Shown here: piece after piece, positions 54,285-64,000 of the stretch
How the letters are laid out: each line of letters opens with the position of its first letter
How positions within the stretch are numbered: the first letter of the stretch is position 1
IMG/VR virus record: IMGVR_UViG_3300015264_000001
Location: 1 to 64,000 of that record
DNA length: 64,000 nt
Source: a virus
Reading direction: 5' to 3' (one strand)
Made by a program: the position numbers and the translations under genes
Notes under the pieces: model-generated
Database searches by the model: none
Seen by the model: the letters and a program-made list of their open reading frames with translations, nothing else
Told to the model about the DNA's origin: nothing

Positions 54285-55096
54285 AGACTGACTTGAAAAC
54301 CTTCGTCCTGCGCCTGCTGGCGCTGAACGTCATTGTGCTTTGCATCCTGCTAACCACGGGGTGCAACGCGAGCTGGACCGCCCAAGCCATCAGCATCGTC
54401 GCGATGCTCGAACCCGCCATCCTTTCCGCGCTCGGCATCGTCACCGCCTTCGGCGTCGGCGTGACCCCGGCGACGCTTACGGCGGTGCAGAAATGGGGCG
54501 CAGAGGCACAAACTGATTTGCGCGAGGTCGCGAACCTGATCAACTCTTACAACTCTGCGGACGCCACGGAGCAGCCGGGAATCCTAGGGCGCATCCAGAA
54601 CATCCTAGAGACGATCACCGACAACCTCAATACGATCCTACCCGACCTGCACATCGCCGACCCGGTGACACAGGGGCGCATTTTCGCTGTCATCGGAGCT
54701 ATCGACTCAGAGATCATCGCCTTAGAGAAGCTTGTACCGATCCTGCAAGGTAAGACGACGACGCACGCGCAGCTCCGCGTCGCCGTGCATGCCGTAAAGA
54801 GCGCCGACGAGTTCGAGAAAGAGTTTAACGTTATCGCCGGAAGTTTCGGCGATCAGTACCGTATCAACCGGGCGAAGACTCTGCCCAAGCCGGGCCACGA
54901 CCCCCGGGGCGATTGGCACGACGAGTTTCACCCTAAGGCTACCGCTAAGCCCGTTGAACAGGGTTTAGCGGGTGAGTCTGCCTTTGCCGATGCACACAGT
55001 CATGCTGCGTTCGCCGCACACGAACCTGCTGCAACCGGGCAAGCTCCAAAGCGTCCACCGAAACCCGTCGGCCCAGTAGTCCCCGGGCCGCGTTAA
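54281..55096 (+). CDS. lipoprotein of the lysis cassette
   Basis: 271 aa, overlapping the endolysin stop as ATGA. N-terminal LNVIVLCILLTTGCNASW has a good lipobox (TTGC), so the mature protein is lipid-anchored. Residues 80-190 are long helices (DLREVANLINSYNSADATEQ, ITDNLNTILPDLHIADPVT) that may coil; the C-terminus is Pro/Ala/His-rich and unstructured. It could be an o-spanin-type lysis protein but is much longer than usual, or a general periplasmic factor. Confidence 0.6.
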   Translation: MKTDLKTFVLRLLALNVIVLCILLTTGCNASWTAQAISIVAMLEPAILSALGIVTAFGVGVTPATLTAVQKWGAEAQTDLREVANLINSYNSADATEQPGILGRIQNILETITDNLNTILPDLHIADPVTQGRIFAVIGAIDSEIIALEKLVPILQGKTTTHAQLRVAVHAVKSADEFEKEFNVIAGSFGDQYRINRAKTLPKPGHDPRGDWHDEFHPKATAKPVEQGLAGESAFADAHSHAAFAAHEPAATGQAPKRPPKPVGPVVPGPR

Positions 55097-55116
55097 ACCA
55101 CAGTACGGGCCGCTAT

Positions 55117-55142
55117 GGGGTTTTCCTTAGTTGGAAAACCCC
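55117..55142 (+). terminator. hairpin terminator after the lysis cassette
   Basis: GGGGTTTTCC, loop TTAGTT, GGAAAACCCC: a perfect 10-bp stem with 6-nt loop, 20 nt after the lipoprotein stop, followed by TCTTATA. The U-run is poor, but position and stem strength suggest it ends the long virion/lysis transcript. Confidence 0.65.
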
Positions 55143-55178
55143 TCTTATACCCCCCCTCGAGTAGCGCTAGTCTACGCT

Positions 55179-55192
55179 TGGACAGCTGTCCA
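55179..55192 (+). promoter_or_regulatory. 14-bp perfect palindrome upstream of the protease gene
   Basis: TGGACAGCTGTCCA lies 62 bp before the papain-like protease ATG and after the terminator, exactly where an operator for an independent promoter would be expected. It is unique in what I read of the window. Confidence 0.4.
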
Positions 55193-55254
55193 GTCGCTGG
55201 CCTACCCCTACCTGTAACGCCTAGCTAGCCTTCTAAACCTGAAAGGACCCCTCT

Positions 55255-56073
55255 ATGCCTCCCGTTTTACCCGTTAGTCCTGCTGGACGTCGTTATGGCC
55301 GCTCCGCACCGCCACCCTTACCCTTGCACCGTATGCTCCGCCGCGTGGTGCCCAACCTCCCGCCCGCCGTTGATCTTCGCCCGAACGCCGGGCCCGTGAA
55401 GAACCAGGGCGACGAGGGCAGCTGCACCGCCCACGCCGGGACCAGCGCCGTGGAATGGATCTTTCGCCGCTACCTGCACACCGAGCCCGTCTTGTCCCCG
55501 CAGTACGTCTACGCGCAGGAGTTGATCAGGCAGGGTAGTTTCCCTGAAGGCTATGCGGCGGACGACGCCGGATCGGACGGGACTACACTTTGCGAGACGC
55601 TGATCTTCAAGGGCAGTTGTCCGGAAGCGAGCTACCCGTACGTTGCGGGTCGGATCGCGCGGCCCACTTCGACGCAAGAAGCGGCGGCGAAACACTACGG
55701 TATGGGCGCGTACCACGGCGTCGCCGGAAGTGCCGTGGCACAGAGTGTGCTGGGTGATTCGACGCCTTGGCCCGTGGAGGTTGGCTTTACCGTGTACGCT
55801 TCCTTCGAGTCCGATGCCGTGGCCAATTCGGGCGTCGTTCCGCTACCGCAGCGGGGCGAGCGGGTGCTGGGCGGGCATGAGGTACTCTGCCTGGGGTACG
55901 ATGTTGGTCGGATGCCAACTATTCGACCGCAGAACTGCCCGGCTGCCTTTCTGATCCAGAACTCCTGGGGCAACGGATGGGGCCTCGGGGGGTTCTGCTG
56001 GATGCCCGTGGCGTACTTCGACGCGCCGGATACGGACCTTAAGATTGTGCACTCGGGGCACCCCTGGATTTAA
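55255..56073 (+). CDS. papain-like C1A cysteine protease
   Basis: 272 aa, ATG at 55255 with GAAAGGACCCCTCT. All catalytic residues are in place: Q51 and C57 in VKNQGDEGSCTAHAG, H208 in GGHEVLCLGYD, N236 in QNSWGNGWGLGGFCW. There is a 40-residue Pro-rich N-terminus and no signal peptide, so the enzyme acts in the cytoplasm or in the virion. Its own terminator and palindrome separate it from the lysis cassette. Such proteases in phages are uncommon; substrates could be host proteins or virion precursors. Confidence 0.85.
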   Translation: MPPVLPVSPAGRRYGRSAPPPLPLHRMLRRVVPNLPPAVDLRPNAGPVKNQGDEGSCTAHAGTSAVEWIFRRYLHTEPVLSPQYVYAQELIRQGSFPEGYAADDAGSDGTTLCETLIFKGSCPEASYPYVAGRIARPTSTQEAAAKHYGMGAYHGVAGSAVAQSVLGDSTPWPVEVGFTVYASFESDAVANSGVVPLPQRGERVLGGHEVLCLGYDVGRMPTIRPQNCPAAFLIQNSWGNGWGLGGFCWMPVAYFDAPDTDLKIVHSGHPWI

Positions 56074-56372
56074 CCGCCAGTCCATACATCGACAAGTAGG
56101 CTCTTCGCTGAGTCCCACGCTGCCGCCAGGACCTCACCGATATTGGTGAGGTCTTTTCGCGTGCAGCCGTGCAAGGCGTCGGCGTTGTTTTCTTCTTGCG
56201 CGTCGAAATGCCAGTCCGAGCAGCCGTCGCACTTTACCGTGCCGTGCGCAAACACAGCAGCTTGCACTATGTTCTCCGTAACATTTACACCATTACCGTA
56301 GCGATCCAAATAGACGGGTGCACTTTCTGGCGGCAATGTACTGCCCCAAATGCGGTAAATTCGGAAGTCCAC
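56070..56372 (-). CDS. hypothetical protein with a CDGC motif; N-terminus uncertain
   Basis: 100 aa from GTG 56372, ending 4 nt inside the convergent protease gene. It contains HGTVKCDGCSDWHFDAQEEN near residues 43-62 and GCTRKDL later. The open frame continues upstream through protein-like codons (NYIQHTVEKIEFAFIIARRE) to 56468 without ATG, GTG or TTG; GGAGG stands 6 nt before an ACG at 56456. The true start may be non-standard or coupled to the upstream gene. Confidence 0.55.
   Translation of the reverse strand: MDFRIYRIWGSTLPPESAPVYLDRYGNGVNVTENIVQAAVFAHGTVKCDGCSDWHFDAQEENNADALHGCTRKDLTNIGEVLAAAWDSAKSLLVDVWTGG
56130..56157 (+). terminator. rho-independent terminator of the protease gene
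   Basis: GACCTCACC, loop GATATT, GGTGAGGTC followed by TTTT: perfect 9-bp stem. It lies 57 nt past the protease stop and inside the coding region of the convergent minus-strand gene. Confidence 0.75.
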
Positions 56373-56442
56373 CGAAAGCTCGCGCCTCGCTATAATAAAC
56401 GCAAATTCGATCTTCTCTACTGTATGCTGTATGTAATTGGGA

Positions 56443-56601
56443 TTATCGCTTCTCGTATCGAACCTCCGTCAGCAACACCTGCTCCTGGCAGCCAACACAA
56501 AAAGCTCGGATTGGCTCTTCCAGTGTAACCCGTGGCATCAGCGCGAGATTGCCCAAGCCACAGGCGGCGCAGACGGGGAAGTAGTTAAATTTGTCGGTCA
56601 T
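56443..56601 (-). CDS. 52-aa zinc-ribbon microprotein
   Basis: ATG at 56601 with AAAGGAAATTAAA. The pattern VCAACGLGN...AFCVGCQEQV gives two CxxC knuckles 24 residues apart, a minimal zinc ribbon. No partner known. The 170 nt upstream (56602-56771) hold no gene; only small hairpins are visible. Confidence 0.6.
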   Translation of the reverse strand: MTDKFNYFPVCAACGLGNLALMPRVTLEEPIRAFCVGCQEQVLLTEVRYEKR

Positions 56602-56771
56602 TTTAATTTCCTTTGCGTTCCGTTCCGCTCGCTGAGTGGTTGTGCTGGTCTAAGGGTGCACCGTAACCCTTCACGGTGATCAGCCGCTACTCTTGGGAAC
56701 TTGCCGTTCCTCCAGCTACCCTTTGCGCGGGTGCGCGCGAGCGGGACGCAACGCAAAGCGTCGCGCAAATT

Positions 56772-57149
56772 CTACTTCTTTACTGGCTCTGACGGCGGCT
56801 GCTTCACACTGGCAATCTTTGTTGTTGGGTCATAAACAATAGTCGCGCCCTTGGGTAATTTGGCGTCGGCAGCCTCTTTCGCGAGCAGAGCGTTATAGTC
56901 GTCCACGGTTTTTTGGAATGCCTTGGTTGCAGTTTGGCAGTCGGGGGAGGCAGCGATGACCGCCGCTTGTACGCGCTGCACTTCCGCCGAAGCCAGCATG
57001 GCGTCTTTATAGGCGTTCTGGATGCGTAGCTGCACGACCTCGGGCAATGTTAGTGTTGTTATGGCAGTCTCGGCGAATACGAAGCCTACTACAGCTAAGC
57101 ACAGTAAAGCTTCTAACATGTAAGACCCGATTCGGTCTACTATTTTCAT
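56772..57149 (-). CDS. exported or membrane-anchored hypothetical protein
   Basis: 125 aa; ATG at 57149 with CGGAGAATTAAA, overlapping the previous stop as ATGA. Residues 10-26 (YMLEALLCLAVVGFVFA) are a signal peptide or anchor with an FA|ET cleavage site. The mature part is a long helix (LRIQNAYKDAMLASAEVQRV, AFQKTVDDYNALLAKEA). Coiled-coil-like periplasmic protein, unknown role. Confidence 0.6.
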   Translation of the reverse strand: MKIVDRIGSYMLEALLCLAVVGFVFAETAITTLTLPEVVQLRIQNAYKDAMLASAEVQRVQAAVIAASPDCQTATKAFQKTVDDYNALLAKEAADAKLPKGATIVYDPTTKIASVKQPPSEPVKK

Positions 57150-57472
57150 TTTAATTCTCCGTTTTCGTAATTGATTCTCAACAGCCCGTCGTCCTCCGCA
57201 CTTACGAGGACGGAAACGAGCTTCCCGCCCTCGTCGCGGTCCACGTGGAGCACGTCGAACCTTACGCCGCCCAGGTTGCGGGCGGCGATTTGGTACTGCC
57301 CACCGCCCATGCCTGTCAGCGGCCCACCCAGCGCCGTGACCGCCGCCAGCGTTCTTCCGCACCGCTCGTCCATCGCGCCGCAGAGCCCGAGAAATTCTCT
57401 TATCGAAAGCAGCTCGGTTATGGCCCGCTGGGAAAGCGGCTCGGGGCTGAGCATATTTCTTCGAGCGCCCAT
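57146..57472 (-). CDS. hypothetical protein
   Basis: 108 aa; ATG at 57472 chosen because TTGGAGGCGATAGG precedes it. Helical N-terminal half with LGLCGAMDERCGRTLAAV, then beta segments (VRFDVLHVDRDEGGKLVSVL, GLLRINYENGELK). Family not recognised. It overlaps the 58-aa gene before it by 55 nt in another frame. Confidence 0.55.
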   Translation of the reverse strand: MGARRNMLSPEPLSQRAITELLSIREFLGLCGAMDERCGRTLAAVTALGGPLTGMGGGQYQIAARNLGGVRFDVLHVDRDEGGKLVSVLVSAEDDGLLRINYENGELK

Positions 57473-57594
57473 CCTATCGCCTCCAATTCCTGCACATTCT
57501 CGGACGTAAGCTCGCCCGGCTGAGCTAGTATACGCTGCGCGAACGTTAACATACAGTCTTCCCAACGCTGTCGATAAAATACAAAGTAGTACAT
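57418..57594 (-). CDS. 58-aa hypothetical protein
   Basis: ATG at 57594, 1 nt after the DUF3310 stop. MYYFVFYRQRWEDCMLTFAQ then LTSENVQELEAIGWALEEIC. It carries the ribosome-binding site of the next gene inside its frame. Codon order looks real; no family recognised. Confidence 0.45.
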   Translation of the reverse strand: MYYFVFYRQRWEDCMLTFAQRILAQPGELTSENVQELEAIGWALEEICSAPSRFPSGP

Positions 57595-57595
57595 T

Positions 57596-58204
57596 TTAAC
57601 GGGTTAGTGCATTCCGGTATGCCATTGTCAACCGCTTCGCCGTACGGACCTCTTCCAGCGTCGTATAGCCCAGTAAGAGCAAGAAGATATCCTGTTGCGC
57701 CTGCGTCGGGCAGTTTTCCTTACAGTACGCGTACCATCCCGCTCGGCTTCGCGCCGGGGGAAGTTGTCCGTACAGTTTACCACCGGGCGCGTAAAGTGAT
57801 TCTAATTTCTCAATGTAGTGGATCGCTTTATCCGTATCCTGCAATGGGTTCTTCGCGCGAGCTAGATACTTTGTAGCACAGCCGACCAGGTACCCGGGAC
57901 CTATCGTGTCGATCATAAGATCCCAATGTTGGTATGTACCTCCGCCGTAATGCATGCCTCCGACCTGTCTACGGTTAGGATCCTTTACTCGTAAATCTTC
58001 TTTCAATTCTTTCATTGCCGTCTGTCCTCCGTTCAATAATCGGTGAAGCTCGACCGTCCAATCCATTACCCCAATCATTGGGCCTAGGTCGTTGCCGACC
58101 TTTTTATGCGCCCCACAGCGCTCGCCCCGGTCTACGCGCAGACAAATATCGATTAAGTGCACGGCGTGGAGAACTTCGTCCAGCCTACGATCCGGCGGGC
58201 GCAA
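57596..58204 (-). CDS. DUF3310-family protein
   Basis: 202 aa if started at TTG 58204, or 139 aa from ATG 58015, which has GGAGGACAGACGGCA upstream. Conserved core RQVGGMHYGGGTYQHWDLMI, GPGYLVGCATKYLARAKN, DTDKAIHYIEKLESLY (residues about 80-137 of the long form) is DUF3310, a small phage domain found beside nucleotide-metabolism genes and sometimes called nucleotide kinase-like. The upstream 63 codons also look protein-like (VDRGERCGAHKKVGNDLGPM). It follows the thymidylate synthase homologue with a 20-nt overlap. Confidence 0.65.
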   Translation of the reverse strand: MRPPDRRLDEVLHAVHLIDICLRVDRGERCGAHKKVGNDLGPMIGVMDWTVELHRLLNGGQTAMKELKEDLRVKDPNRRQVGGMHYGGGTYQHWDLMIDTIGPGYLVGCATKYLARAKNPLQDTDKAIHYIEKLESLYAPGGKLYGQLPPARSRAGWYAYCKENCPTQAQQDIFLLLLGYTTLEEVRTAKRLTMAYRNALTR

Positions 58205-59264
58205 CGAGTTTCATATTTCTTAGCTCCCGGCGTTCGATCCATTCTTTACAGGCCGCGTACCAGTCCCGATAAGCCGTTTGCATAGGTTCTAGTGCTGCGA
58301 GCCCCGTTCCTCGCTTTTCTTTCCGTTCCGTCCACGCCGCGTACATCGGCAGTGCGCACTGTGTAAAAAATTGATCAGTGAATTTTGACCAATCTAGTTT
58401 GCCTGAAGCGTTAGAATCACACAGCCGGAAAAAATTACTCAGTTCTTCGTCCCACTCATCAACATTGTCAATGTTAATTACGCGCGACGGCGGAATACCG
58501 TCTTCATAGCGATTTGAGGTTTCCACGTCCTGCGCCAATTGCCAAAGTGCCCAGTCCGGGCCATCGGAATGCGCTTCGAAGTCGCGCGTGTACAAGTGGT
58601 AATTGTTCGAGAATTGTCGATATGTACCGATCGCATAGCCCGCCCGGGCGGCGACGTACTCTTGCAGGATCGACATGTGTACGGCGTTGGCTCCGTACGC
58701 GCCGAGGATAATATCGTTGGAGCGGCAGCATACGGTCATATCCAACGTACCACCATCCTGCACGAGAAAATAGACGTGTGTGTTGCAGGGTACATCTTTT
58801 CCACCGCCGATTGCTTTGTACAGATCGTTATACTGCCCGGCTTCCTGCGTTGCATCCCACATCTGCAATATACAACGTCGACTTTCCGGGTTATTCTTCA
58901 GCTCATTCGCAATGGGGATAAGTTGATCGAAGCCCATTCCCACGCGCCAGCGGTCGCCGTATGCACCGTGCACGGTAACACCGTCGTCCGAGTAAGCTCC
59001 GAACTTGGAGTTAAAGTACAAGGGCCAGGCTAAGTCGTTCCGCCCGGCGAGCATCCAGAGCGCTTCCATTAAATGGAAAAAGGGGTTAGCATCTCGCCGT
59101 GGCGAAAACAGCACTCGTTCCTGAGGCTTGCGGTAAACGGTAAGGACTGGCTCTGGTGCAACCAACACCGGGCCGTTGCGAGAAGTTTGTGTGATGCCGG
59201 ACGTACGAAGGTACATGATACCGTCGGCAAGAGCTGCGTTCACGTTACGACACTTTAATTCCAT
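58185..59264 (-). CDS. thymidylate synthase homologue, probable dUMP (hydroxy)methylase
   Basis: 359 aa, ATG at 59264 with AAAGGAAAAT. Fold signature: PFFHLMEALWMLAGRND (61-77), AYGDRWR (101-107), paired Arg in PESRRCILQMWD (126-137), the catalytic cysteine C160 in DVPCNTHVYFLV, and MTVCCRSNDIILGAYGANAV (176-195) with RS and an Asn for the pyrimidine. The residue after Cys is Asn instead of His, and the overall length exceeds ThyA, as in a phage subgroup linked to modified-base synthesis. Beside a hypermodification gene and a glycosyltransferase it may make 5-hydroxymethyl-dUMP, but plain dTMP synthesis is not excluded. Confidence 0.85.
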   Translation of the reverse strand: MELKCRNVNAALADGIMYLRTSGITQTSRNGPVLVAPEPVLTVYRKPQERVLFSPRRDANPFFHLMEALWMLAGRNDLAWPLYFNSKFGAYSDDGVTVHGAYGDRWRVGMGFDQLIPIANELKNNPESRRCILQMWDATQEAGQYNDLYKAIGGGKDVPCNTHVYFLVQDGGTLDMTVCCRSNDIILGAYGANAVHMSILQEYVAARAGYAIGTYRQFSNNYHLYTRDFEAHSDGPDWALWQLAQDVETSNRYEDGIPPSRVINIDNVDEWDEELSNFFRLCDSNASGKLDWSKFTDQFFTQCALPMYAAWTERKEKRGTGLAALEPMQTAYRDWYAACKEWIERRELRNMKLVAPAGS

Positions 59265-59291
59265 ATTTTCCTTTCATTCGTTCTTGCTTTG

Positions 59292-60152
59292 TCATATCCC
59301 ACTTCCTCGATAAAGTTGTTTCGGTCGACCTTCGCCCGTGCGAGCGCGTTCATACTTGTCGAACTCGCAACATGCGTTCTGGGTATTTTGTGCACACATA
59401 CGTGGCATCCCTACTTTTTGTAAAAGCGGGGCCAACTCCGATTGTAATTTTTGCAACGTAGAAAGCCAATGATTTACCTGCCCGTCTTTCCAGGGATGTT
59501 CTGTAGGATATCCGCACACTCGATTCAGACCCCGCATGCTACCCGGCCCGGGCGCAGCCCACGTCCACCAGTCTTTGGCTCGGTTAAGCGGTGCTACGTA
59601 CTTAAGATCCGCGATTACTTGCGCGGCCATAAAGCTACCCATGCCGTAATATTGGGAAAGTACACTGTGTATATCGGCGAGCGTAGGCGGGGGAATAGTG
59701 CCGAGTGTTTCATTGTTAATTACGGCCCAAATATCTTTTCTTGCTTTCCACATCGGCGCCAACACGGCATTAAGTACATAGTCGATTTTATCGCCCGGGT
59801 CCGAGCGGACCATATACGCCGCGTTAAAGACGGGCGGGGTTAGCTTCTTAAGTCGCTTTCGGAGCTCCGCTGGGCGGTAGGGTACCGGATATCCAAGCGT
59901 CGCGAGCGTCGCCGGTAAGTTGAAGAAGCGAGCCACTGTTAATGCGAACCACAGATCGGGGTCCGTCGCGTGCGGCGTACGCCAGTGTTCCCGAATCCAG
60001 ATTGTTACCTTGTCAAGCTCCCTGTAAACATTGCAAAAACGGAACTTCTGTAAAATTGGGTCTTCCGTCCAGGGCGCGGGTTCACCACGCTCCCGACAGA
60101 CCCAGATAGCGTGGCGGACTTTAATAAATTGAAAGAATTCCGTCGTTCTCAC
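59292..60152 (-). CDS. putative DNA base hypermodification protein (5-hmdU kinase-helical/aGPT-pyrophosphorylase-like)
   Basis: 286 aa, GTG start at 60152. N-terminal 'FFQFIKVRHAIWVCRERGEP', PWTEDPILQKFRFCNVYREL with the FRFxNxYRxxD motif at 37-47, DLWFALTVARFFNLPATLA, then YYGMGSFMAAQVIADLKY at 168-185 (helix-hairpin-helix-like) and GPGSMRGLNRV at 202-212. This set of motifs belongs to phage proteins named hypermodification proteins, related to 5-hmdU DNA kinase helical domains and the aGPT-pyrophosphorylase group, which act on hydroxymethyl-uracil in DNA. There is no P-loop kinase here. Overlaps the glycosyltransferase gene by 32 nt. Confidence 0.75.
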   Translation of the reverse strand: MRTTEFFQFIKVRHAIWVCRERGEPAPWTEDPILQKFRFCNVYRELDKVTIWIREHWRTPHATDPDLWFALTVARFFNLPATLATLGYPVPYRPAELRKRLKKLTPPVFNAAYMVRSDPGDKIDYVLNAVLAPMWKARKDIWAVINNETLGTIPPPTLADIHSVLSQYYGMGSFMAAQVIADLKYVAPLNRAKDWWTWAAPGPGSMRGLNRVCGYPTEHPWKDGQVNHWLSTLQKLQSELAPLLQKVGMPRMCAQNTQNACCEFDKYERARTGEGRPKQLYRGSGI

Positions 60153-60945
60153 GCTTTAGCGCCTTTCCACTGCTGAGATAGGCTTTTTTCCATTGCACAA
60201 CTACGTCCGTCCGCGTTGCGCCGCCCCACGCTGTTTTGGTGGTCTTCTGTACAGCTTTAACGAAGCCGGGGTGCAGTCGGGCCAAGCGCCGAGCCGTCTC
60301 GGCCTGTACCTTAAGCGTACGGTAACCGCTACAGCCGCCGATAGTGTTGCTACCGCGTTGTCCGTGGGCCCACAGGTGGAGCACCTTATTGGGGTGCCCC
60401 AGCCGTAGCAGCTGCAATGTCATGTCGAAGTCTTCCATGGGTGGGTTACGGTCGAAACGAGCAGCACTCCCGCGCAGTGTGCTCATGTGGTAGGCCAATA
60501 CGCGACACATGCGCATACAGTATCCGTCCTCCAACATGCGGTTACCGCCTTCGCGGGGACAGACGCCGACGTGGGGGATTCGAGCAGATAGTGTCCGCTC
60601 GATAGTTTCTAGCATTTCGCCGACGTCGGTAGTGCTCGCGGCTAAAAAGTGCGCAGGTTCGTCGGAGCGGCGGACTAATAGCTCGAGATCGTCGTCGAGC
60701 ATACAGATCTTAGGCCCTTGCGCTTGTTCCACTATCCATTGTCGCTTCATACCGATGCGTTGCACGCGCTCCGGAACGGCTTTTACCGTAACCCAGGGCG
60801 GTACCGTTTCCACGTACGCCCGGCGCTCGTGGGCGTAGACGACGACCGTGGTAACCCGTTGCCAGGGTTCCGGCAGTGCGAAGATAGTGGTCTGCAGCGC
60901 CGCGCGGCCCGTGCTCGGAATAAAGAGTTCGAGCGAGTTTTTCAC
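60121..60945 (-). CDS. glycosyltransferase, TET-associated (TAGT)-like, probable DNA base glucosylation
   Basis: 274 aa, GTG start at 60945 overlapping the ATPase stop (GTGA) with GGAGCAAAA upstream. GT-A features: N-terminal ELFIPSTGRAALQTTIFALP, the metal/UDP motif MLDDDLELL at 82-90, HVGVCPREGGNRM near 125-137 and EDFDMTLQLLRLGH at 171-184, then TIGGCSGYRT and LARLHPGFVKAV. This arrangement matches the family first noted next to TET/JBP oxygenases that adds sugar to modified bases. No TET protein is visible here, so the acceptor may be hydroxymethyl-uracil from the neighbouring enzymes. Confidence 0.75.
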   Translation of the reverse strand: MKNSLELFIPSTGRAALQTTIFALPEPWQRVTTVVVYAHERRAYVETVPPWVTVKAVPERVQRIGMKRQWIVEQAQGPKICMLDDDLELLVRRSDEPAHFLAASTTDVGEMLETIERTLSARIPHVGVCPREGGNRMLEDGYCMRMCRVLAYHMSTLRGSAARFDRNPPMEDFDMTLQLLRLGHPNKVLHLWAHGQRGSNTIGGCSGYRTLKVQAETARRLARLHPGFVKAVQKTTKTAWGGATRTDVVVQWKKAYLSSGKALKRENDGILSIY

Positions 60946-62687
60946 TTTTGCTCCAAGGCTTGATACTTACTCACGTTAATGATGTCAGCAACCGTAGCTT
61001 TCTCTTTCTTCAACATTGTTGCCAGCTTAAGAATGTTGCGTACAGAACGCCCGCTGATGTTGGGAAGCTCTTTTACTAGCTGTGCAATTTCTTTCGTTTT
61101 CAACTCCACACGATATTGCCGGCACAGCACGCTCCAGATTGTAGCGAGAAGCTCGGCGGAGGGTAGTTGGTATTGAATCCAGGCTGTGGCTCGCGAGAGA
61201 ATGGCATCGTCAACGATATTCCCGCGATTGCTAGTCATAAACAGAACGCCCCGGTAGTATTCGAGCAGCCGCAAGAACACACCCACAATTGCGTTTTGGG
61301 TTATGTCCTCGCCCCGGTTACGGATGTAAACGTCGGATTCGTCAATGAGTAGGACTGCGCCCCATCGTGACGCCCGCTGGAGAATCTCTTGTAGGTTGCT
61401 TTCGATGGTGTCGACGCTAAGACCTAGCTGGGAACACTGCACGTTGTAGAGCGGCTTCTCAATGTACTCCGAGAACACTTCTGCGGTAAGCGTCTTACCC
61501 GTGCCGGGCGCTCCCGTAGCCAAGACGATTACACCGCTCATTTTGCCGCGTACAATGTCTTCGATGGAGTGCCCGCTGGAACTGATGAGAATTTGTAGTA
61601 GGTCTTTCTGCTCTTGCGGTAAGATCAACTTTTGTAATAGCGTTTTATCCCAATCGTACGGTTGTAGGTTAGCGGCGTGCAGGTTAATCCAGCTATGAGT
61701 GTCCAGATCGAAGCAGTACAAATAAGGATGCAGCGGGAGCATAACTTCGAGTTTCGGCTTCTCCGGCTCGTCTGGATCGTCTTCATCCTCGTCTTCATCC
61801 TCGTCTTCATCGAGTTCAATGCCCCGCGCGGTTAGGCCGTTACGGTCGGGTACGTCTTCCCAGAAATTAACTGTGTAGAAGCGGGGCTCGTCATCACCCT
61901 TATTGTCTTCAAGCTCCTCGGTTCGCGGGTCAAGAACTACTTTTGTCGCCTGACCGTTACGGACCATTTCCACCTGGCTGTAACGAGATTGCCAACGGCT
62001 AAGTTGTATACCGAAGCCCACTCCGATAGCCAATGCCTGGACGCCACAAGCATTCTGGTAAACTCCATAGGTTTCCAACGACGCCGTGTATTCTGCTACA
62101 GCAGCGGGCGTTTCATGACTAAGTCCGAGCTGCTCGAAAATCTTAGGAACTGTAGTCGGCGTAAACGCGTCCTCATCAATGCTCGCGCTTTCGCTTTCTC
62201 GAGAGCCGTTCTTGTAACCAAGAAAATCTATTTTCACGTAGGCCGGGTAGACATACCCTCCACGTTCGCGGCGGCGCTTAAAGTACTTAATATCCGTAAC
62301 TAGATAGGGGAGCAGGATGTGGTCGCTATTCTCTCGGAAAATCCAACGATGCGGTGCAGATTCTTCCAGGTAACGTTGAATGGCAATGGGAAGCATTTGT
62401 AGGTTCTTAACCTTTGTCGCGGAACTAACCTTGCCTTCGAACAATTCGAAGTAAGCGCGTAAGCGACCCTTTACCCATTTATTATGCCGATCGGTCGGTG
62501 CCTCCGCTAGCCGGGCGTCGATTACGGCGGCTAGCGTCTTAAGCTCCCCGGGCGCGAAGACGGTAGTGGCCAGCGTGGTCCGCGAGTCCTCGTTCTTATA
62601 GCGAATAGCTTCGCGGATTTTCTCGTTCTTGTTGCCAGTCCGCTTTAACAGTTCGGTAAGCTCGCGGACTTTTATTTGGAATTCCAC
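60942..62687 (-). CDS. AAA+ ATPase of the hypermodification operon
   Basis: 581 aa from GTG 62687 (CTGGAG 6 nt upstream); the open frame extends 63 codons further but that part is shadow-like. Residues 1-275 are an uncharacterised alpha/beta region; about 290-312 is an acidic linker (DEDEDEDEDDPDEPEKPK). The AAA module has Walker A GAPGTGKT at about 389-396, Walker B VLLIDESD near 440, the sensor FMTSNRG and arginine-finger region LSRATAWIQYQLPSAE, then a lid helix. Classical-AAA-type remodelling enzymes act on protein or DNA complexes. The role here is unknown; coupling to the glycosyltransferase suggests a shared pathway. Confidence 0.75.
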   Translation of the reverse strand: MEFQIKVRELTELLKRTGNKNEKIREAIRYKNEDSRTTLATTVFAPGELKTLAAVIDARLAEAPTDRHNKWVKGRLRAYFELFEGKVSSATKVKNLQMLPIAIQRYLEESAPHRWIFRENSDHILLPYLVTDIKYFKRRRERGGYVYPAYVKIDFLGYKNGSRESESASIDEDAFTPTTVPKIFEQLGLSHETPAAVAEYTASLETYGVYQNACGVQALAIGVGFGIQLSRWQSRYSQVEMVRNGQATKVVLDPRTEELEDNKGDDEPRFYTVNFWEDVPDRNGLTARGIELDEDEDEDEDEDDPDEPEKPKLEVMLPLHPYLYCFDLDTHSWINLHAANLQPYDWDKTLLQKLILPQEQKDLLQILISSSGHSIEDIVRGKMSGVIVLATGAPGTGKTLTAEVFSEYIEKPLYNVQCSQLGLSVDTIESNLQEILQRASRWGAVLLIDESDVYIRNRGEDITQNAIVGVFLRLLEYYRGVLFMTSNRGNIVDDAILSRATAWIQYQLPSAELLATIWSVLCRQYRVELKTKEIAQLVKELPNISGRSVRNILKLATMLKKEKATVADIINVSKYQALEQK

Positions 62688-62708
62688 AAACGTCTCCAGT
62701 GTTAAAAT

Positions 62709-62732
62709 CCCTCCGGTCGTAAGACCGGAGGG
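62709..62732 (-). other. strong hairpin upstream of the AAA gene
   Basis: A perfect 10-bp stem with a 4-nt loop: CCCTCCGGTC and GACCGGAGGG. On the minus strand it is followed by ATTTTAA, so it could act as an attenuator or terminator between the upstream small gene and the ATPase; the 3' arm contains GGAGGG, an SD-like sequence that would be hidden in the stem. Confidence 0.55.
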
Positions 62733-62760
62733 CCTACAGCTTTTTACCGGGAGGACCTGC

Positions 62761-63021
62761 TTACTTGACTTCGACGTGACCGTGCGTAACGTCGTAAGCC
62801 AGGTCGCGGCTGCTGCCCCCGGCTGCCAGGAAAGACTCCACCGTCTTGTTCTTGCCGTAGAGCTCGAAACGCTCACTGGCGGCGCTCCCTTCGCGCTTGG
62901 GGTTCTTGTCGGCGAGAACTTTGATCTTCATTTCGGGACCGAACTGCCCGGCGCGTCCGCGCTTACCTTTGGCTTCTCCGTTCGCTTTCGTCTTCTTTGC
63001 TGCCTTTTTCTTGGTTGCCAT
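62761..63021 (-). CDS. small conserved phage protein
   Basis: 86 aa, ATG at 63021 with GAGGAGGGTATCGAT, a strong SD. Lys/Ala-rich basic N-terminus (MATKKKAAKKTKANGEAKGK) followed by a 55-residue domain (EMKIKVLADKNPKREGSAAS, YGKNKTVESFLAAGGSSRDL, DVTHGHVEV) typical of stand-alone phage proteins of unknown function. The frame is also open upstream into the preceding gene, but the strong start and familiar size favour a separate protein. Confidence 0.65.
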   Translation of the reverse strand: MATKKKAAKKTKANGEAKGKRGRAGQFGPEMKIKVLADKNPKREGSAASERFELYGKNKTVESFLAAGGSSRDLAYDVTHGHVEVK

Positions 63022-63627
63022 ATCGATACCCTCCTCGGGTGTCCTGCTGTTTAGATTTGTACTACGTGACCTTTGTACTCCATCATTCGCAGATTGTAAA
63101 GAGAAATCTTTTGTTCCTTCCAAAACAGTGACTTCCGTCAGCAAAGACCAGTTTACGCGCGTCCGGCGAGCGGCAGTAAAGTCTACGGCAGCCCCACTGC
63201 GAGCGTCCTTAAACTGACGGCGGCTGGGCGGACTGTCAAGCTCGACTAGCGCCCCACCTGCTGTGCAATAGACCAGATAACCCGCAAGACTGTGACCTCC
63301 ATCATTGCCCATCTTTGGCATATCGCAGCGGAACCGCTGCCCGGGCTTTAGGGCATTAATTGGCCCTACGGAGCCCAGCGGAGCCTTAGGGCGGCGGTGC
63401 TCCTCGTAGCACGCCTCGCTACAGAAGTCACCGTCGATACCCTGTATCTTATAGCCCGGCTTACCGCAGGGACAGACGGGCGCGGCGGCGGCTTTCTGCT
63501 CGTCGAGCGGGGGAGGGCCGCTTACGACGGCGTTGGGTTTATTGCCACGGACAAGCCCAGCGAGGACGCGTCCAGCCCGGGCGCTGGGGACTTTCACTTT
63601 CCGCTTCTTCAACTTAATTCCTGCCAT
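62761..63627 (-). CDS. zinc-binding (CPCG...FCSEAC) protein, C-terminus uncertain
   Basis: ATG at 63627 with AAAGGAGCTCGAC. The start is basic (MAGIKLKKRKVKVPSARAG). Residues 50-75 hold CPCGKPGYKIQGIDGDFCSE and AC, a treble-clef/TRASH-like zinc motif. The next 100 residues include ALKPGQRFRCDMPKMGNDGG. In the present frame the gene reads on into the 86-aa gene (288 aa total). In another frame a protein-like end (KISLYNLRMMEYKGHVVQI, stop TAA 63051-63053) stands 29 nt before that gene's start, so a frameshift near 63110 or a sequencing indel is possible. Confidence 0.55.
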   Translation of the reverse strand: MAGIKLKKRKVKVPSARAGRVLAGLVRGNKPNAVVSGPPPLDEQKAAAAPVCPCGKPGYKIQGIDGDFCSEACYEEHRRPKAPLGSVGPINALKPGQRFRCDMPKMGNDGGHSLAGYLVYCTAGGALVELDSPPSRRQFKDARSGAAVDFTAARRTRVNWSLLTEVTVLEGTKDFSLQSANDGVQRSRSTNLNSRTPEEGIDMATKKKAAKKTKANGEAKGKRGRAGQFGPEMKIKVLADKNPKREGSAASERFELYGKNKTVESFLAAGGSSRDLAYDVTHGHVEVK

Positions 63628-63656
63628 GTCGAGCTCCTTTATTGTAAGTCTAGTTT

Positions 63657-63869
63657 TTACAGCACCCGCGCCGCCTTGATCGCCGTTACCGCCAGGTAAA
63701 GCGCCGTCCATCCCATTGCCGCCATCGCAATGATGATGGTTGCCCCCAGGAGCCAGTCGAGCCGCCGCCTCAGCCGCGAACGTTCCAGTAGGATGGTGTC
63801 GTACCGCCACTCCCGCCGCTCCACCGCCGCGTCCTTGACTTCCACGGAGGAATCCCAGTGGATCGTCAT
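63657..63869 (-). CDS. 70-aa single-span membrane protein
   Basis: ATG at 63869 overlapping the preceding stop as ATGA. Charged N-terminal helix (VEVKDAAVERREWRYDTILL) and a hydrophobic C-terminal segment (LLGATIIIAMAAMGWTALYL). Tail-anchored topology; function unknown. Confidence 0.55.
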   Translation of the reverse strand: MTIHWDSSVEVKDAAVERREWRYDTILLERSRLRRRLDWLLGATIIIAMAAMGWTALYLAVTAIKAARVL

Positions 63870-64000
63870 AGGCCCATCCTACTAGCACACTCTGGACCGA
63901 TTCCGGCGGCGATGGACTCCGGTACGGTTAAGGGCCTGCCGCAGCGTCCGCAACGCCCTTCGTGCCAGACCTCCAGCGAGTCTGGTAGGACGCCGAGCGC
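63866..64000 (-). CDS. DUF6011-type zinc-binding protein (partial, N-terminus outside window)
   Basis: The last 44 codons are present, entering from beyond the right edge. Pattern VWHEGRCGRCGRPLTVPESI followed by GIGPECA is the C-terminal zinc-ribbon of DUF6011 proteins, common small phage proteins of unknown role. The stop overlaps the membrane-protein start. Confidence 0.65.
   Translation of the reverse strand, partial: ALGVLPDSLEVWHEGRCGRCGRPLTVPESIAAGIGPECASRMGL

Follow-up and report, generated by a model that had tools for sequence, protein, structure and literature searches.

A recurrent TAGT, HMUDK_hel and hydroxymethylase cassette as a candidate kinase-free thymine glycosylation pathway in phages

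The minus-strand run at positions 58185-62687 of the virus record IMGVR_UViG_3300015264_000001 consists of four adjacent or overlapping genes encoding an AAA ATPase, a TET-associated-type glycosyltransferase (TAGT), a protein of the HMUDK_hel family (hereafter hel) and a homologue of thymidylate synthase (TS). The window referred to throughout is the stretch of 64,000 nucleotides from the start of this linear record of 72,516 bp. Judged from their sequences, the TAGT, hel and the TS homologue probably constitute a thymine glycosylation pathway that operates without a 5-hydroxymethyldeoxyuridine (5-hmdU) kinase. The basis of this reading is the protein families involved, the synteny, the exclusivity and repeated switching of the partners of hel, and the conserved residues of the hydroxymethylase. 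With less confidence, we also lean towards the more general view that hel is a recognition subunit for 5-hmdU in DNA with swappable partners, namely a kinase, a TAGT or a GT-B enzyme resembling the T4 alpha-glucosyltransferase (AGT), and that kinase-free thymine glycosylation would be widespread.

The three predicted modification proteins

An earlier, sequence-only reading of this DNA had described the run as a 5-hmdU-type modification set, and all four of its open reading frames (ORFs) were found:

58185..59264, minus strand: TS homologue, predicted deoxyuridine monophosphate (dUMP) 5-hydroxymethylase, 359 aa (PF00303, phrog_5131)
59292..60152, minus strand: HMUDK_hel (formerly aG/PT-PPlase1), predicted 5-hmdU-DNA recognition subunit, 286 aa (PF18723)
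60121..60945, minus strand: TAGT glycosyltransferase, predicted 5-hmdU-DNA sugar transferase, 274 aa (PF20691, phrog_842)
60942..62687, minus strand: AAA+ ATPase, first gene in the run (PF00004)

The assignment as a modification set is consistent with the profile matches: the 286-aa protein belongs to HMUDK_hel and the 274-aa protein to TAGT, neither to an unrelated family, and the TS homologue groups with the M6-type hydroxymethylases.

The TS homologue matches PF00303 (7e-18) and phrog_5131 (6e-105), shares 48% identity with gp58 of phage M6 and has the same residues as the hydroxymethylases of kinase-type phages at C160, R181 and N193. The PCN motif at its catalytic Cys, which had been noted before in place of PCH, is indeed present. 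However, it is no anomaly, since 131 of the 132 aligned hydroxymethylases have Asn after this Cys, the lone exception being the T4-type dCMP (deoxycytidine monophosphate) hydroxymethylase, and PCN therefore marks the hydroxymethylase group. At the site that discriminates between the pyrimidines, we take Asn to be typical of thymidylate synthase and of dUMP hydroxymethylases, and Asp of dCMP hydroxymethylases. Asn is found in the window enzyme (N193) as well as in all 59 TAGT-linked, all 21 kinase-linked and all 35 enzymes linked to the family A5 that is described below, while the T4-type dCMP hydroxymethylase of phage KP179 differs from this group. The TS homologue, which combines the TS fold with the catalytic C160 and with Asn instead of Asp at the discriminating site, is predicted to make 5-hmdUMP; enzymes making 5-hmdUMP and those making dTMP are possibly inseparable by sequence alone (PMC5977210).

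These residues also bear on a cytosine route, in which the TS homologue would be a dCMP hydroxymethylase, the TAGT would act on 5-hydroxymethylcytosine (hmC) and hel would be a leftover or have some other role. Such a route would agree with the TAGTs of T-even relatives, which belong to the hmC pathway (PMC13216743, PMC13390438), and with the name dCMP-hydroxymethylase that was given to the corresponding enzyme of Brevibacterium phage LuckyBarnes by its authors (PMC6588365). However, every TAGT-linked enzyme possesses the uracil-type Asn, as does gp58 of the thymidine-hypermodifying phage M6 and unlike the enzyme of KP179, and KP179, which encodes a dCMP-hydroxymethylase together with a TAGT, lacks hel in its whole genome. 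We therefore regard the cytosine route as unlikely.

The TAGT, of which the record contains a single copy, matches PF20691 (5.6e-19; 69.3 bits with a cut-off of 27.5) and phrog_842 (7e-43). Both motifs that the sequence-only reading had pointed out, DDD at 84-86 and EDFD, are present. The metal-binding triad D84, D85 and D86, the downstream acidic residue D172, and also R131 and R145 are invariant in 51 homologues. PDB sequence matches of this protein to designed TIM barrels were rejected as spurious.

The hel protein is covered by PF18723 almost entirely (profile positions 6-277 of 281; 6.9e-42; 144.2 bits with a cut-off of 25). The two motifs by which it had been recognised as a hypermodification protein, FRFxNxYRxxD and GMGSFMAAQVIADLKY, were both located, the former as FRFCNVYRELD. 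Its homologue in M6 is gp55 (39%), which adjoins the P-loop kinase gp54. The AlphaFold model of hel has a pLDDT of 94; it is matched by other members of HMUDK_hel and, with an E-value of 6.5e-4, by the amino-acid:DNA transferase (ADDT) family. A function as a base-flipping module is plausible from this model, because the top PDB matches, which are non-significant (E at least 0.8), include the DNA glycosylases MjOgg and OGG1 and a queuine salvage enzyme. A GxG motif, followed by an Asp 22 residues further, is no more than suggestive of the helix-hairpin-helix (HhH) DNA-glycosylase superfamily.

Partners of hel in viral contigs

The absence of a kinase and of a TET enzyme from the set, which had already been noted, extends to the whole record, where the profile search revealed neither the 5-hmdU kinase PF18748 nor ADDT PF18724 nor TET/JBP PF12851. 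In M6-type phages the kinase phosphorylates 5-hmdU and decoration takes place afterwards (PMC6449724). On the evidence of its genes, the record appears to lack this phosphorylation route.

Viral contigs were scanned with hel and with TAGT, and after removal of hel proteins that were at least 90% alike, 105 loci remained. A TAGT is the partner at 60 of them and a kinase at 23, and none has both. Within the hel-ascertained subset (n = 65), the corresponding numbers are 23, 20 and 0 (Fisher p 3e-5, with shared ancestry ignored). Fifty whole records were also searched with Pfam models. Neither PF18748 nor ADDT was detected in any of the 28 records with a TAGT, and no TAGT in any of the 12 records with PF18748, ten of which possess ADDT; the same search finds PF18748 and ADDT in M6, Sonora and others. 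The members of all 110 TAGT-hel pairs lie on the same strand, mostly within 1 kb (108 of 110) and often within 60 bp (77 of 110). TAGT, hel and the hydroxymethylase are a recurrent cassette.

It is conceivable that the kinase comes from elsewhere, be it from the host, from genome sequence that the record does not show, or in the form of the AAA ATPase, and that phosphorylated hmdU of the M6 type is then decorated by the TAGT or by another enzyme. The family name of hel refers to the kinase, the two are fused in Bacillus phage Goe26, and the linear record may be incomplete. Nevertheless, a search that detects PF18748 and ADDT in kinase-type phages found them in none of the TAGT records, and the AAA protein neither resembles PF18748 nor is conserved in the cassette, so that we consider an external kinase improbable.

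The tree built from the 105 hel proteins implies no fewer than 14 switches of partner between kinase and TAGT, and its well-supported branches impose a minimum of six changes in TAGT status. In all partner classes (kinase, TAGT, A4 and A5), 13 residues of hel are invariant; they include the polar residues N41, R44, D47, D194, C262, E263 and K266. The fusion of kinase and hel in one protein of Goe26 suggests that hel works jointly with its partner. It is also possible, although we doubt it, that hel itself is catalytic, for instance in a base-processing step, and that it lies next to TAGT or kinase because they serve one pathway, not because they are physical partners. The invariant polar residues, the structural kinship with ADDT, which is an enzyme, and the occurrence of hel alone in very large phages, with no TS, TAGT or kinase nearby, would fit such a role. 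However, the switching of partners with the conserved residues unchanged and the kinase-hel fusion are explained more simply by a subunit.

Four contigs of 223-463 kb (L027, L029, L044 and L046) carry hel in a neighbourhood that lacks hydroxymethylase, TAGT and kinase genes, and their hel proteins form one well-supported group on the tree.

At hel loci that have neither TAGT nor kinase, a member of the family A5 is often the neighbour. The 80 A5 loci include 41 with hel and none with a kinase, and A5 lies beside hel together with TS. The AlphaFold model of A5 (pLDDT 90) has a GT-B fold, and its best PDB matches include T4 DNA alpha-glucosyltransferase, also in complex with hydroxymethyluracil DNA (E ~1e-9). 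Since the A5 model is GT-B and the fold of the TAGT family is, as we assume, GT-A, two unrelated glycosyltransferase folds are predicted to pair with hel and a hydroxymethylase with no kinase present. In six clusters (L222, L239, L244, L247, L295 and L057), an A5 enzyme and a TAGT occur together; this is reminiscent of T6, which has an alpha-glucosyltransferase plus a TAGT, and by analogy suggests a disaccharide on the base.

The family A4 (L176-L218; for example L042:6040-7014), which has no Pfam or PHROG match, likewise adjoins hel, often with a P-loop kinase. It was considered as a replacement of the kinase and rejected, because a profile built in this analysis detects a P-loop kinase in 24 of the 43 new A4 loci as well; in the two A4 loci tested, L187 and L193, the P-loop protein has no match to PF18748. 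Clusters with TAGT, A4 or A5 repeatedly contain a radical SAM/SPASM gene (L062, L049, L018, L014, L117, L118, L135, L057, L031, L082 and L026), which hints at further processing of base or sugar.

For a genome scan, a 4-row TAGT alignment was used, the 51-row alignment being too diverse for this purpose. The single match was L304, a contig of 40.7 kb from a Methylobacter metagenome-assembled genome, with a TAGT-hel-TS-HD cassette. Its binning with a methanotroph is a possible hint at the host of such phages.

Proposed pathway and the surroundings of the run

In the pathway that we propose, the TS homologue would convert dUMP into 5-hmdUMP, which phage DNA would take up in place of some or all of its thymidine. 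The hel protein, which is helical and related to ADDT and possibly to DNA glycosylases, would then recognise 5-hmdU in the DNA and present it to a partner enzyme. This partner would be the TAGT, which would use a nucleotide sugar as donor and glycosylate the oxygen of the 5-hydroxymethyl group. In M6-type phages the partner of hel is instead the P-loop 5-hmdU kinase, as the first step to amino-acid decorations. The modified DNA would be shielded from restriction and other nucleases.

Several points weigh against this proposal. Direct action of a TAGT on 5-hmdU would, to our knowledge, be the first of its kind for the family, since the known chemistry of the T6 enzyme concerns glucosyl-hmC. The activity of T6 TAGT is the addition of a second glucose onto glucosylated hmC and not onto hmdU (PMC13216743, PMC13390438). 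The likeness of the hel model to DNA glycosylases is non-significant in the PDB fold search (best E 0.8). The Fisher test takes no account of shared ancestry among the hel loci, the hel tree was quickly built and has many weak branches, and most of the surveyed contigs, like the record itself, are possibly incomplete. Strict exclusivity of TAGT and kinase is softened by contig L193, which encodes a TAGT and a P-loop protein, the latter with no match to PF18748. Finally, the complete phage MW202897 possesses a TAGT and a hydroxymethylase and no hel; hel is therefore not strictly required.

The AAA ATPase (PF00004, 1e-13) had been counted as part of the pathway by the sequence-only reading. A GTG at 62687, with GGAG upstream, fits the start given there, and the GTGA overlap at the junction with the TAGT gene is present. 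TAGT and hel genes overlap by 32 bp, hel and TS genes are separated by 27 bp, and the terminator scan showed no terminator between the genes of the run on the minus strand. One could thus count the AAA ATPase as an integral component and the run as a new system of four genes, the more so as the ATPase gene recurs in another contig. However, the TAGT and hel of that contig are 100% identical to those of the window, and no other fetched TAGT-hel locus has the gene. No AAA relative was found in the scan of viral contigs either. The closest relatives are the ATPases of Bacillus phages AR9 and PBS1 (37% identity), in whose DNA uracil replaces thymine, and the AR9 gene is situated among virion and recombination genes, not near modification genes. 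The expected conservation of the AAA gene next to the glycosyltransferase is thus confined to a locus with identical proteins, and a conserved cassette component can be dismissed. Because it is missing from the other TAGT-hel loci fetched and its AR9 relative is not linked to modification genes, the AAA ATPase is best excluded from the proposed route. Probably it is only co-transcribed, as a bystander, and an integral role is very improbable.

Two further features flank the run:

57596..58204, minus strand: downstream ORF (phrog_5839, weak DUF3310), which shares 20 bp with the end of the TS gene; the true start may be internal
62709..62732, minus strand: perfect inverted repeat of 10 bp with ATTTT after it, read from the sequence and not reaching the cut-off of the terminator scan

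The inverted repeat is likely the terminator of the upstream gene and would mark the 5' border of the run. Elsewhere, the phage encodes terminase, portal, tail, primase, helicase and family-A polymerase genes. For the stretch 55000-64000, no close DNA relative was found among 50,697 phage records.

If the proposal holds true, a family that was named as part of a kinase would really be a shared adaptor, and the glycosylation of thymine in phage DNA would follow a common route, a biochemically uncharacterised branch of hypermodification. It would yield a direct prediction for the isolated phage LuckyBarnes and, for the site-directed glycosylation of DNA, new enzyme candidates, and it would be a motive to seek restriction systems and DNA glycosylases that target such bases.

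Comparison with known systems

A close parallel in an isolated phage is the run gp41-gp38 of LuckyBarnes, where TS, TAGT, TAGT and HMUDK_hel overlap and the whole genome lacks kinase and ADDT. It differs from the window by two TAGTs, a longer TS, a diverged hel (31%) and the lack of an AAA gene. Besides the dCMP-hydroxymethylase, its announcement names two glycosyltransferases and leaves hel unremarked (PMC6588365). In pelagiphages of the HTVC023P type, TS and aG/PT-PPlase1 are likewise co-located, sometimes with a glucosyltransferase. In the part of that source available to us, the set is read as M6-like with a possibly broadened function, and kinase absence and partner exchange are not addressed (PMC9599517).

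The sequence-only reading knew of no described pathway with this combination of genes. In view of LuckyBarnes and the pelagiphages (PMC9599517), the combination of TAGT, hel and TS is not entirely undescribed. Of the exchange of kinase and glycosyltransferase, we found no description in the literature searched; the main papers on thymidine hypermodification, which lay outside this search, may mention it.

Glucosylation of hmC in T-even phages (T6 TAGT, T4 AGT and BGT (beta-glucosyltransferase), KP179) shares the TAGT family with the window, and T4 AGT resembles A5. However, it relies on a dCMP hydroxymethylase, has cytosine as its target and involves no hel, as seen in KP179. Base J synthesis and the TET-TAGT cytosine pathways of phages also attach sugar to hydroxymethylated pyrimidines in DNA. 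There, in contrast, TET or JBP generates the hydroxymethyl group on the DNA itself, and the window record has no TET.

Closely related in its components is the thymidine hypermodification of the M6/ViI type, with a hydroxymethylase of the same group and the same hel family, encoded adjacently on one strand. In the window, P-loop kinase PF18748 and ADDT PF18724 are absent, and a glycosyltransferase fills the slot beside hel.

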